The notes below the pieces were generated by a model that saw only the letters and a list, made by a program, of their open reading frames with translations, did no database searches and had not been told where the DNA came from. 57,965 nucleotides of DNA from assembly GCA_015488485.1 (NCBI GenBank), contig WFNR01000150.1, positions 1 to 57,965 on the forward strand. Direction: 5' to 3'. This stretch comes from Cyclobacteriaceae bacterium. Its GTDB lineage: Bacteria > Bacteroidota > Bacteroidia > Cytophagales > Cyclobacteriaceae. A program made the position numbers and the translations under genes. The stretch's first letter is position 1, and every line of letters begins with the position of its first letter. This document shows, in pieces, positions 15,563 to 29,841 of this stretch.

Positions 15563-15892
15563 TCAGGTGTCATATGAGGTGTCAGGTGATTTTTTACTTT
15601 GAAGTGGTTGAGCGAAGTCGTTATCAGACAGTGGTTGAGCAGAAACACTATCTGACGGTGGTTGAGCGGAGCTGAAACCACCTTCATAATTCTCATGACT
15701 ACTCTTATTTTTACACTTCGCCAACTCAGGCAACAATTCTGGTGTCCCGTTTATCAATGCTTGCTTTTTCTTCCGACCCCATCCCTGCACTTGTTTTTCA
15801 CGATAAAAAGCTTCATCTATTCTTGGGTATTCTTCGTAATATACCAACTGCACGGGCAATCGCTTTTTAGTGTGGTTGGTGCCTTTGCCATT
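15563..15892 (-). pseudogene. GIY-YIG nuclease family remnant (N-terminal half lost)
   Basis: On the minus strand a frame reads NGKGTNHTKKR LPVQLVYYEE YPRIDEAFYREK QVQGWGRKKKQALINGT and then ELLPELAKCKN. This matches the C-terminal half of UPF0213-like GIY-YIG proteins in Bacteroidota. The part that should hold the GIY and YIG strands and the catalytic Arg is missing: upstream of ~15892 the similarity stops and a stop codon lies nearby, next to the end of hepT. After AKCKN the frame runs through the 27-bp repeats, giving a non-native tail. It is a fragment, probably cut when the MntA/HepT pair arrived or during later decay. Confidence 0.7.
15604..15679. repeat. Three tandem 27-bp units starting GTGGTTGAGC
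   Basis: The words starting GTGGTTGAGC at 15604, 15631 and 15658 are spaced exactly 27 bp apart, and the parts between are similar (TTATCAGACA / CTATCTGACG). An inverted relative (CTCGACTCCGCTCAGG) lies at 15552-15567. The core resembles the GGTTGAGCGGAGTCGAAACC word that I recall as a dispersed repeat in Bacteroidota genomes. On the minus strand the repeats are read as the Ser/Ala/Gln-Pro-Leu tail of the GIY-YIG remnant. Confidence 0.75.
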
Positions 15893-28922: not shown

Positions 28923-29032
28923 AACACTTAACCCTGCAAAGAAAAGCAGTTTACTCCTTTTGCACTTATTGAAGTGAACAGTTTAGCCATAACCAAGTAG
29001 CAACCGGTATGGTTCCCGTATTGTTTATTTAA

Positions 29033-29095
29033 GGTGAAAAACCTGGTGTCCTGTCATTTTAATTGGCAAAATTATCCGAAAATTCTGCGATACAT
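29033..29095 (-). pseudogene. Joined remnants: GIY-YIG gene 3' tail and tRNA-Glu anticodon piece
   Basis: On the minus strand, ~29095-29054 is similar (about 70% by eye over ~45 nt) to the 3' end of the intact GIY-YIG gene and the bases just after it. It is followed directly by GGACACCAGGTTTTTC, the anticodon-arm part of tRNA-Glu with one change. The join is at the same tRNA position as the junction at 29240/29241, so this is an older copy of the same arrangement. Confidence 0.65.
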
Positions 29096-29100
29096 TCATA

Positions 29101-29129
29101 AAAAAAGCCCTGAACAAAAGTTCAAGGCT
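29101..29129 (-). terminator. Rho-independent terminator, copy 1 of tRNA-Glu terminator
   Basis: Read on the minus strand: AGCCTTGAAC-TTTT-GTTCAGGGCT followed by a T-run. It stands 11 bp downstream of the broken tRNA-Glu copy 29141-29240 and is a close copy of the terminator at 29521-29549. Confidence 0.85.
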
Positions 29130-29140
29130 TTCTGTTTTCG

Positions 29141-29240
29141 TAGCCCGTAGGGGAATCCCTGCCGGTCGCAGGGCGGGAACCCCTGTCGCAGGATGCCACC
29201 CTGTGGGTGGTCACCCGGTAGGGTGAAAAACCTGGCGTCC
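29141..29240 (-). pseudogene. Broken tRNA-Glu copy (3' part) with two hairpin insertions
   Basis: Compared with the intact tRNA at 29561-29632, this copy holds the acceptor 3' strand, T arm, variable region and anticodon arm, and ends at GGACGCC. It lacks the D arm and acceptor 5' strand. It has a ~19-nt insertion in the T arm (29158-29176, hairpin CCCTGC/GCAGGG) and a 30-nt insertion in the anticodon loop (29196-29225, two hairpins). It cannot make a working tRNA. At 29240/29241 it is joined to bases following the GIY-YIG gene. Confidence 0.8.
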
Positions 29241-29260
29241 AGACACTTCAAATGATAAAA

Positions 29261-29506
29261 CTAACTGAAAATTCTTCGATAAAGTTGCTCTTTGGCAAAA
29301 CTGTTCTTTTTCAGTTCTATCTTACGCTTGCGAGCCAAAGTTTTGGTGGAATAAGCCTCATAATAGACCAGTTCCATTGGCAACTTATGCTTGATTGATT
29401 TTGTTTTACCCTGGTTATGCTCTTTCAGTCTTTGAACTATGTCACCTGTGCTACCAATATAGGTGGTACCATCCTTTAGACTTTTCAATACATATACAAA
29501 GTACAT
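29261..29506 (-). CDS. Small GIY-YIG nuclease family protein
   Basis: 81 aa, close to full length for single-domain UPF0213/YhbQ-like GIY-YIG proteins. The start MYFVYVLKSLKDGTTYIGSTGDIVQRLKEHN carries the GIY-equivalent VYV (4-6), YIG (16-18), and the likely catalytic Arg26. LVYYEAYSTKTLARKRKIELKK follows, with Glu64 as candidate metal ligand. Isolated GIY-YIG domains act as structure- or site-specific DNA nucleases in several mobile systems, while many chromosomal ones have no known role. It lies between two tRNA-Glu copies with their terminators, and fragments of the same gene lie at both sides. Confidence 0.85.
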   Translation of the reverse strand: MYFVYVLKSLKDGTTYIGSTGDIVQRLKEHNQGKTKSIKHKLPMELVYYEAYSTKTLARKRKIELKKNSFAKEQLYRRIFS

Positions 29507-29520
29507 GAAGACAAATTAAC

Positions 29521-29549
29521 AAAAAAGCCCTGAACATAAGTCCAAGGCT
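29521..29549 (-). terminator. Rho-independent terminator of the intact tRNA-Glu
   Basis: On the minus strand: AGCCTTGGAC-TTAT-GTTCAGGGCT followed by TTTTTT (two mismatches in the stem), 11 bp downstream of the tRNA. It would also separate the tRNA transcript from the GIY-YIG gene behind it. Confidence 0.8.
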
Positions 29550-29560
29550 TGCTGTTTTCG

Positions 29561-29632
29561 TAGCCCGTAGGGGAATCGAACCCCTGTTACCAGGATGAAA
29601 ACCTGGCGTCCTAACCCCTAGACGAACGGGCC
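29561..29632 (-). tRNA. tRNA-Glu (anticodon TTC)
   Basis: 72 nt on the minus strand with a full cloverleaf. The acceptor is GGCCCGT pairing with ACGGGCT (G-T at position 1-72), with discriminator A. The anticodon arm is CCAGG-TTTTCAT-CCTGG with TTC at 34-36, and the T arm is AGGGG-TTCGATT-CCCCT. CCA is not encoded. This is the only intact copy in a block of duplicated pieces. The promoter at 29811-29841 lies beyond a broken copy, so the tRNA would be made from a longer precursor. Confidence 0.96.
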
Positions 29633-29650
29633 ATAAGCAATTTATTTTCG

Positions 29651-29771
29651 CACAGTCGCTCTTTTGCTAAACTGTTACCAGGATGCCACCCTGCGGGTGG
29701 TCACCCGTTAGGGTGAAAAACCTGGCGTCCCACCCTCACGGGTGGCAAGCGAACCCCTAGACGAACGGGCC
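29651..29771 (-). pseudogene. Broken tRNA-Glu copy (5' part) with two hairpin insertions, fused to a GIY-YIG fragment
   Basis: From 29771 down the minus strand reads the tRNA-Glu acceptor 5' strand and D arm, then a ~21-nt insertion (29731-29751, hairpin CCACCC/GGGTGG). The anticodon 5' half follows, then a 30-nt insertion in the anticodon loop (29686-29715), then CATCCTGGTAACAG. At the shared word AACAG it switches to a piece similar to the GIY-YIG gene 3' region (TTTAGCAAAAGAGCGACTG, 29672-29651). T arm and acceptor 3' strand are absent. It complements the broken copy at 29141-29240, as if one insertion-bearing tRNA had been split in two. Confidence 0.78.
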
Positions 29772-29810
29772 ATTTTCTTTTTCTCCTCGACCGCTTGCCG
29801 AAAAGTGTTG

Positions 29811-29841
29811 CAAATATAGCGGTTGGATTTATTTTGCCAAA
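29811..29841 (-). promoter_or_regulatory. Canonical Bacteroidota promoter of the tRNA-Glu locus
   Basis: On the minus strand TTTG, a 19-bp spacer and TATATTTG match the -33/-7 consensus (TTTG, N19, TAnnTTTG) without mismatch. Transcription would start near 29804, about 33 nt before the first base of the broken 5' copy, and run on to the intact tRNA-Glu. Confidence 0.75.

Follow-up and report, generated by a model that had tools for sequence, protein, structure and literature searches.

Tandem tRNA-Glu copies around a small GIY-YIG nuclease gene in a Cyclobacteriaceae genome and their possible origin from a homing-type cassette

We analysed a stretch of 57,965 nt from a Cyclobacteriaceae bacterium (GCA_015488485.1, contig WFNR01000150.1; hereafter the window), in which copies of a tRNA-Glu gene alternate with an 81-codon GIY-YIG nuclease gene and pieces of it. 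The locus spans positions 29,033–29,841 and reads on the minus strand, in the following order:

29810–29841, minus strand: promoter of the tRNA-Glu locus (from sequence)
29672–29771, minus strand: copy 1, the 5′ part of a tRNA-Glu with hairpins in the D loop and anticodon loop (from sequence and repeat comparison)
29730–29745, minus strand: D-loop hairpin of copy 1 (from sequence)
29686–29716, minus strand: anticodon loop of copy 1, two adjoining hairpins (29716–29701 and 29700–29686; from sequence)
29639–29676, minus strand: tail of a first GIY-YIG gene, 38 nt, of which 23 nt match the end of the intact gene at 87%
29560–29632, minus strand: intact tRNA-Glu(TTC) (ARAGORN; Rfam RF00005, 61.9 bits)
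29521–29550, minus strand: inner terminator-like hairpin, within a 57-nt repeat (95% against the outer copy)
29261–29506, minus strand: GIY-YIG nuclease gene, 81 amino acids, Lys62 replacing a conserved Glu (Pfam PF01541, 54.3 bits; alignment; AlphaFold2)
29140–29240, minus strand: copy 3, the 3′ part of a tRNA-Glu with hairpins in the anticodon loop and T loop (from sequence and repeat comparison)
29196–29226, minus strand: anticodon loop of copy 3, two adjoining hairpins (29226–29211 and 29210–29196; from sequence)
29157–29173, minus strand: T-loop hairpin of copy 3 (from sequence)
29100–29130, minus strand: outer terminator-like hairpin (from sequence and repeat comparison)
29054–29089, minus strand: tail of a third GIY-YIG gene, the second tail at the locus (in a 63-nt, 79% repeat of the gene-end/tRNA junction)
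29030–29051, minus strand: copy 4, a short tRNA-Glu piece (from sequence)

All the pieces of the mosaic that the original prediction had described were found, with order and positions accurate. The −7 box of the promoter is, on our assumption, of the TATATTTGC type, and a near-identical promoter precedes an intact tRNA-Glu in a genome of the same genus (G001). The idea that the outer tRNA pieces are complementary halves of one gene did not hold: positions 29730–29679 and 29240–29189 match over 52 nt at 96% identity, the double hairpin of the anticodon loop among them, so that the pieces are two copies rather than two halves. Similarly, the second GIY-YIG tail and the last tRNA piece repeat the junction between gene end and tRNA. 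From this overlap and the repeated junction, the locus reads as a tandem array of tRNA–terminator–GIY-YIG units that has eroded, with an intact tRNA left in one of them. Copy 1 and the first tail share AACAG at their junction, which looks like a deletion by short homology. A reading of this overlap as evidence against an insertion was dropped, since the same overlap lies on both sides of the cassette (tRNA, terminator and nuclease gene) in other genera; it corresponds to a short direct repeat flanking the cassette.

The nuclease gene had been called intact. As expected of a homing endonuclease element, its 81-amino-acid product does carry the GIY-YIG domain, yet position 62 is Lys, where the other 28 of the 29 aligned sequences have Glu. 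We take this conserved Glu to be the metal-binding residue of the GIY-YIG fold, and the window's nuclease is therefore probably inactive. The AlphaFold2 model (mean predicted local distance difference test score, pLDDT, 92.3) resembled the UPF0213 protein BH0048 (E = 6e-4 in a structure comparison) and, more weakly, the nuclease domain of SLX1 (E = 0.006). By profile as well as by fold, UPF0213 was the nearest solved relative and SLX1 the next closest.

Small GIY-YIG genes should lie next to tRNA genes in other genomes too if the original prediction was right, and this expectation was borne out. We scanned the window's own genome and related ones, 39 in all, and examined 92 small GIY-YIG matches among the matches listed, leaving out frames near 600 amino acids and of 430–500 amino acids. 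Within this set, 40 lay ≤300 bp from a tRNA called by ARAGORN, all on the same strand, and these were spread over 18 of the 23 genomes with such matches. The tRNA was upstream in 34 of the 40 (38–60 bp ahead in 23 of these), downstream in 8 and on both sides in 2. With tRNA pieces included, 53 of the 92 had a tRNA or a piece of one ≤330 bp upstream or ≤300 bp downstream. By comparison, 0 of 11 control genes (UvrC or long GIY-YIG) had a tRNA within 330 bp, and 0 of 24 members of another small GIY-YIG clade were tRNA-linked, one of them having a tRNA-Arg 433 bp off.

The window's own genome has nine GIY-YIG matches. Six are small genes, one of them cut by a contig end, and three of the six adjoin a tRNA (Glu, Leu and Val), each with additional hairpin-bearing tRNA pieces. 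At the Leu locus (L002, C75), the tRNA-Leu ahead of the nuclease carries a double palindrome near its 3′ end, and a second, plain tRNA-Leu with a copied upstream region lies behind the nuclease. Two small GIY-YIG genes without a neighbouring tRNA (L001 and L003; C102 and C21) lie beside short-repeat arrays whose units resemble CTTCGAGAACCT or TTCTCGAAG. The gene cut by the contig end (L007, start of C17) is followed by hairpins and, by eye, an apparent tRNA T arm. Finally, the window holds another truncated GIY-YIG piece at 15764–15889 on the minus strand (E = 6.5e-4, under the Pfam cut-off). It comes after a small gene pair that by eye we take to be a nucleotidyltransferase and a HEPN-type partner, the partner apparently frameshifted.

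For a tree of the nucleases, the 92 matches were reduced to 73 rows by dropping proteins below 65 amino acids, two odd ones and repeats per genome and isotype. This tree, which has few columns and many open forks, splits at a Shimodaira–Hasegawa-like approximate likelihood ratio (SH-aLRT) of 99 into 24 proteins, none of them tRNA-linked, and 49, of which 39 are linked. On the linked part, tRNA isotype changed 19 times, compared with 25–31 times in 300 shuffles, and same-isotype groups took in four genera for Asp, five for Met and three each for Ser and Pro. The Leu-linked nuclease of the window's genome pairs with a Leu-linked one from another genus (support 94), and its Val-linked nuclease sits in a mixed group (Val, Thr, Met and Leu). 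The relatedness of the nucleases thus partly tracks tRNA isotype, beyond chance.

We then used five Met-linked proteins to scan 427 relatives and kept 79 loci. Most are from Bacteroidota, and the rest from Ignavibacteriota, Balneolota, Cloacimonadota, one Rhodothermota and one KSB1 record. A tRNA lay ≤400 bp upstream in 60 of the 79 loci (56 Met, 3 Asn, all from Cloacimonadota, and 1 unassigned), and 51 of these 60 had a tRNA piece behind the nuclease gene. In 53 of the 79, the rear piece follows one design: anticodon-loop TC[A/T]TA, then a hairpin (TCCGCC, a few loop bases, GGCGGA) or a variant of it, followed by C and the T arm. The arms of this hairpin change in pairs, from C-G to T-A, with one G-T, and the loops vary. 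At position 5 we counted C-G 47 times and T-A 6 times, and at position 6 C-G 46 times, T-A 6 times and A-G once; arm positions 1–3 were partly fixed by the search expression, positions 4–6 being free. In 13 of the 79 loci a D-loop sequence (TAGAGCG or TAGCTCG) can be read that includes the nuclease stop codon.

The hairpins are embedded in the tRNA sequence itself. When exact 7-nt flanks were required on either side, 91 of the 623 hairpins located near tRNAs sat collinearly in the cognate tRNA (55 of the 79 loci), as against 0 of 623 for reversed, complementary-strand or shuffled tRNAs, so that the embedding is not due to chance. Of these 91, 72 (70 Met and 2 Asn, from 46 loci) take the place of tRNA positions 38–47, between flanks 37 and 48. 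For His and Pro the hairpin replaces positions 27–43, the whole anticodon arm (flanks 26 and 44), and for one Val positions 28–42; in some other isotypes, T-loop or D-arm positions are replaced. In five Ignavibacteriota loci the nuclease precedes the tRNA-Met, and four of these have a hairpin in place of positions 22–32, on the opposite side of the anticodon. Between isotypes the hairpins vary in sequence, length and tRNA arm, and a similar hairpin at the same tRNA position is found in Bacteroidota, Balneolota, Rhodothermota and Cloacimonadota. Genomes with the strict Met form are few, its pattern matching in 7 of 395 genomes of the phylum; in two of the seven (G205 and G072) the matches were not hairpins by eye, and since the strict pattern misses variants and all other isotypes, 7 of 395 is a lower bound. 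One locus (L086, G019) has an ARAGORN tRNA-SeC ∼40 bp before a GIY-YIG gene that reads as a tRNA-Met whose 3′ anticodon stem is replaced by a hairpin, and hairpin-bearing tRNA copies recur upstream of it, mostly in 103-bp steps. In another (L182, G017), the 1 kb covered has tRNA-like pieces linked through TCCGCC..GGCGGA palindromes.

The arrangement of these copies was examined in the 58 Met loci whose nuclease has an intact tRNA-Met ≤450 bp ahead of it (three Niabella rows among them are one locus). Hairpin copies lay behind the nuclease in 48, before the tRNA in 21, on both sides in 14 and on neither in 3. The layout of the window, an intact tRNA and a nuclease between two hairpin-bearing partial copies, therefore recurs in a minority of Met loci. 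A front hairpin copy runs through positions 1–37, the hairpin and positions 48 to ∼58, and is followed by a leader and the intact tRNA; at some loci (L118, L155, L161 and L173) there are several such copies in tandem. As judged by eye, most of the copies behind the nuclease have no 5′ acceptor strand. The terminators of the two tRNA copies, compared by eye in 17 loci, differ in L103, L117, L118 and L146 and agree in L120, L128 and L149. Furthermore, several genomes have tandem nuclease units.

Empty sites, for which the original prediction had suggested looking in close relatives, were found among Mucilaginibacter species. At one locus, next to a START-like gene (named by eye), a shared promoter leads into a single plain tRNA-Met in two species (G414 and G136), and in a third (G398) into two hairpin copies, an intact tRNA and three nuclease units. 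Two further genomes showed two hairpin copies and then the contig end (G249) and no tRNA there (G296). The site thus has occupied and empty alleles, as a homing element would. The neighbourhood of era gave little yield as a source of empty tRNA-Met sites, with a same-strand upstream tRNA in 3 of 30 loci.

The window's own locus is next to a GAPDH gene. Of 29 relatives with a GAPDH locus, 20 were inspected, and 11 of these 20 have a tRNA-Glu by that gene. As judged by eye over ∼420 bp downstream, five carry lone tRNA genes free of remnants (L253, L255, L256, L260 and L262), two, one of them from the same genus, an intact tRNA with a decayed 3′ remnant (L250, the congener, and L254), and three have two tRNAs (L267–L269). 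Nuclease units were present only in G007 (L264), in the opposite orientation to GAPDH. Between the window's genome and a congener, the His, Val and Leu loci differ in nuclease presence and in hairpins. These comparisons show that nuclease-less arrays persist and suggest that the nuclease is gained and lost. In the window's genome, two or more remnant units of ∼106 bp, with T-arm hairpins and no nuclease, lie behind an intact tRNA-His (L281, C40).

We propose, with about even confidence, that the window's locus is a decayed tandem member of a homing-type cassette family (intact tRNA, terminator and stand-alone GIY-YIG gene) that occupies tRNA genes, mostly in or next to the anticodon arm. The proposal builds on the association with tRNA genes and its isotype preference, the preferred junction, the occupied and empty alleles, the intact tRNA beside broken copies and the tandem growth. 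The nuclease would cut an unoccupied tRNA gene at a preferred place, and recombination repair would copy the cassette in, with the 5′ and 3′ parts of the tRNA as homology arms, making the cassette mobile. The resident tRNA would be left as the one or two partial copies seen at these loci, with a hairpin replacing the presumed cut region. The complete tRNA, placed behind the resident promoter and presumably the tRNA in use, would keep the cell alive. Through direct repeats, units would later be amplified into arrays or shed the nuclease, which could account for both kinds of array. In the window, the nuclease has probably been inactivated by the change from Glu to Lys, and the array appears to be decaying. 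The hairpin sits where the presumed cut would be expected, and its arms are kept complementary. It may be a scar, an immunity mark or the binding site of the nuclease itself, the last gaining weight if the nuclease were structure-specific in the manner of SLX1. An RNA role of the hairpin copies is possible.

Several observations weigh against the homing-type cassette. At the occupied Mucilaginibacter locus, the intact tRNA-Met has exactly the sequence found at the two empty ones, so the insertion spares its presumed target and gives the carrier no immunity by sequence; an intact tRNA that retains the presumed target is not what classical homing would predict. The loss of the target that insertion of a homing element should bring was seen only in the outer partial copies, which lack the site. 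Since the inner tRNA has not lost it, we do not class the cassette as an ordinary homing endonuclease gene. The split tRNA is not universal, as 34 of the 58 Met loci have a downstream hairpin copy only, and the window's genome and its congener have unlike hairpins at corresponding loci, so that one element cannot simply have brought the hairpins with it. On the 73-protein tree, 10 of the 49 rows in the linked clade have no tRNA label (one is a tandem copy and two are at contig ends), isotype clustering is partial, with Met, Asp, Val, Pro, Ser, Leu, Thr, Asn and His each in more than one part, and the window's Glu-linked nuclease is separate from the other Glu-linked protein. Finally, the Met nuclease tree, which uses one of the three Niabella rows (the other counts on the 79 loci include all three), keeps genera together (20 changes, minimum 19), showing steady inheritance, with no transfer from one genus to another in view. 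Classes are mixed on it (26 changes, minimum 7, shuffled mean 42.6). The layout first described for the window, in which broken tRNA copies flank an intact tRNA and the nuclease, is a recurrent form and not the commonest one. The original prediction is partly supported. Neither of the outcomes that it named as refuting was seen, since small GIY-YIG genes are enriched beside tRNA genes and relatives show more than simple tRNA duplication. As for a homing or tRNA-targeting element that restores its target, the enrichment beside tRNA genes, the recurrent layout and the empty sites favour it, and the overlap of the outer copies and the presumed target kept in the intact tRNA do not.

The sparing of the intact tRNA would be accounted for if a structure-specific nuclease like SLX1 recognised the hairpins, single-stranded or as cruciforms, in the partial tRNA copies and not the plain gene. 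Cutting at the hairpins would free a unit, and its tRNA-matching ends would drive insertion and amplification. The arms in the 53 loci agree with this, keeping their complementarity through paired changes and one G-T pair above variable loops, as does the place of SLX1 as the closest relative after UPF0213, by profile and by a fold match with a weak E-value. Nevertheless, hairpin sequence, length and tRNA arm vary by isotype, and even between congeners at one locus, and the Met hairpin is not dispersed as repetitive extragenic palindromic (REP) sequences are (TCCGCCNGCNGGCGGA in 6 of 39 genomes, with 1–8 sites each). We regard hairpin-directed recombination as unlikely.

Passive decay is a somewhat poorer prospect still, and we think it improbable. 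Here, GIY-YIG genes would lie near tRNAs for other reasons, tandem duplication would make the tRNA copies, and palindromes would pile up in the useless ones. Decayed units and nuclease-less arrays at the loci of the window and its congener would fit this, and the palindrome of the Leu remnant (query 1474–1522) matches elsewhere in the window's genome. Decay would not lead us to expect one hairpin type to recur at one tRNA position across Bacteroidota, Balneolota, Rhodothermota and Cloacimonadota, nor the clustering of nucleases by isotype, nor that 76 of 77 Met-set nuclease frames fill half or more of the alignment columns kept without meeting a stop.

Very unlikely, in our view, is an RNA-based pair resembling a type III toxin–antitoxin, in which the hairpin-bearing tRNA repeats would yield decoy or antitoxin RNAs and be followed by a terminator and the gene of a toxic nuclease: its layout can be read from the four loci where tandem repeats of the RNA gene, intact tRNA, terminator and nuclease follow one another, and the His, Pro and Val hairpins swap the anticodon arm and keep the surrounding sequence, but hairpin copies are commoner behind the nuclease (48 loci) than before the tRNA (21), the rear copies cannot fold as a tRNA where the 5′ acceptor strand is missing, as it mostly is, G-U pairs are avoided in the hairpin changes, and GIY-YIG is a DNA nuclease fold.

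Integrative elements with a tyrosine recombinase also target tRNA genes, regenerate the tRNA and leave a tRNA fragment. The cassettes share the tRNA target, the intact tRNA and the leftover fragment, but have units of ∼0.4 kb with one nuclease gene and an anticodon-arm site with hairpins. In the one locus checked for an integrase (L313), the only ATG frames of at least 70 amino acids from the promoter to the last tRNA copy were three GIY-YIG genes. REP sequences and their associated tyrosine transposases (RAYTs) likewise place small palindromes around a nuclease gene. A REP-like genome-wide repeat was rejected for the Met palindrome, given its few sites, and the adjoining gene here is a GIY-YIG gene; unlike the Met palindrome, the Leu palindrome of the window's genome does recur elsewhere there. 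A group I intron was rejected as well, because Rfam at gathering score gave only two tRNAs in the window. In a search for a phage source, tblastn with one Met-linked protein against 50,697 phage records gave no match at E 1e-5, and no IMG/VR contig had the exact Met hairpin pattern; the plasmid search gave a single weak match (42% identity over 75% of the query). The nuclease shares its compact fold with UPF0213 and other small stand-alone GIY-YIG proteins (PDB 1zg2 and 1ywl) and with SLX1, and differs from the other small GIY-YIG clade of the same genomes in forming the separate tRNA-linked clade.

In protein and target, the closest known system is phage SegB, which is larger than the cassette nuclease. 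SegB is described as a free-standing GIY-YIG homing endonuclease that lies by tRNA genes, cuts in them and is needed for tandem amplification of a tRNA segment (PMC13096335). A GIY-YIG nuclease beside tRNA genes and tandem tRNA units are common to both, but SegB is from a phage, and the parts of that account consulted report no isotype preference and describe no split tRNA or hairpin copies (PMC13096335). In architecture, the cassettes come closest to the mobile open reading frames (mORFs) of fungal mitochondria, such as those in Glomus atp9 (GIY-YIG) and Allomyces atp6, where an endonuclease frame inside a host gene brings a replacement gene end and the native end is displaced downstream (PMC3630166). 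Both have a nuclease frame in a host gene with a replacement and a displaced gene end; indeed, 48 of the 58 Met loci have a complete tRNA and a displaced copy of the tRNA end flanking the nuclease frame. By this analogy, the proposed movement of the cassette would match that presumed for mORFs. Unlike the cassettes, mORFs sit in mitochondrial protein genes, and the parts of the source consulted describe no hairpins in the displaced copy, no arrays and no tRNA (PMC3630166). A foreign origin of the inserted end is supported for mORFs (PMC3630166); for the tRNA cassettes the terminator comparison went both ways. Our search, with preprints and most subscription papers outside it, found no description of tRNA-linked GIY-YIG cassettes in bacterial chromosomes; term-level checks covered accounts of the GIY-YIG superfamily (PMC1564403), tRNA fragments (PMC9897764) and phage nuclease genes (PMC10448857).

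As far as sequence can tell, the cassette behaves as a homing endonuclease gene, with a fair likelihood that its hairpin system sets it apart as a separate class. More tentatively, and with doubt outweighing confidence, we suggest a new class of selfish elements: a GIY-YIG nuclease of 80 amino acids with a clade-preferred isotype would capture essential tRNA genes, put a DNA hairpin in place of the resident copy's anticodon arm on both of its sides and carry the sole working tRNA. This would amount to natural cut-and-rescue across Bacteroidota and neighbouring phyla, with the hairpin as a recognition or immunity signal of the nuclease itself. Engineered cleave-and-rescue drives exist, and the cassette would be their natural counterpart. 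The tRNA genes of a large phylum would then host a minimal mobile element, a single gene of ∼80 codons that lives by holding an essential gene. This would account for tRNA fragments, tandem tRNA arrays and odd ‘selenocysteine’ tRNA calls, one of which is a hairpin-bearing tRNA-Met, and would provide a large natural set of mini-nucleases with tRNA-gene preferences. How a nuclease coexists with an intact copy of its target would become a testable question.

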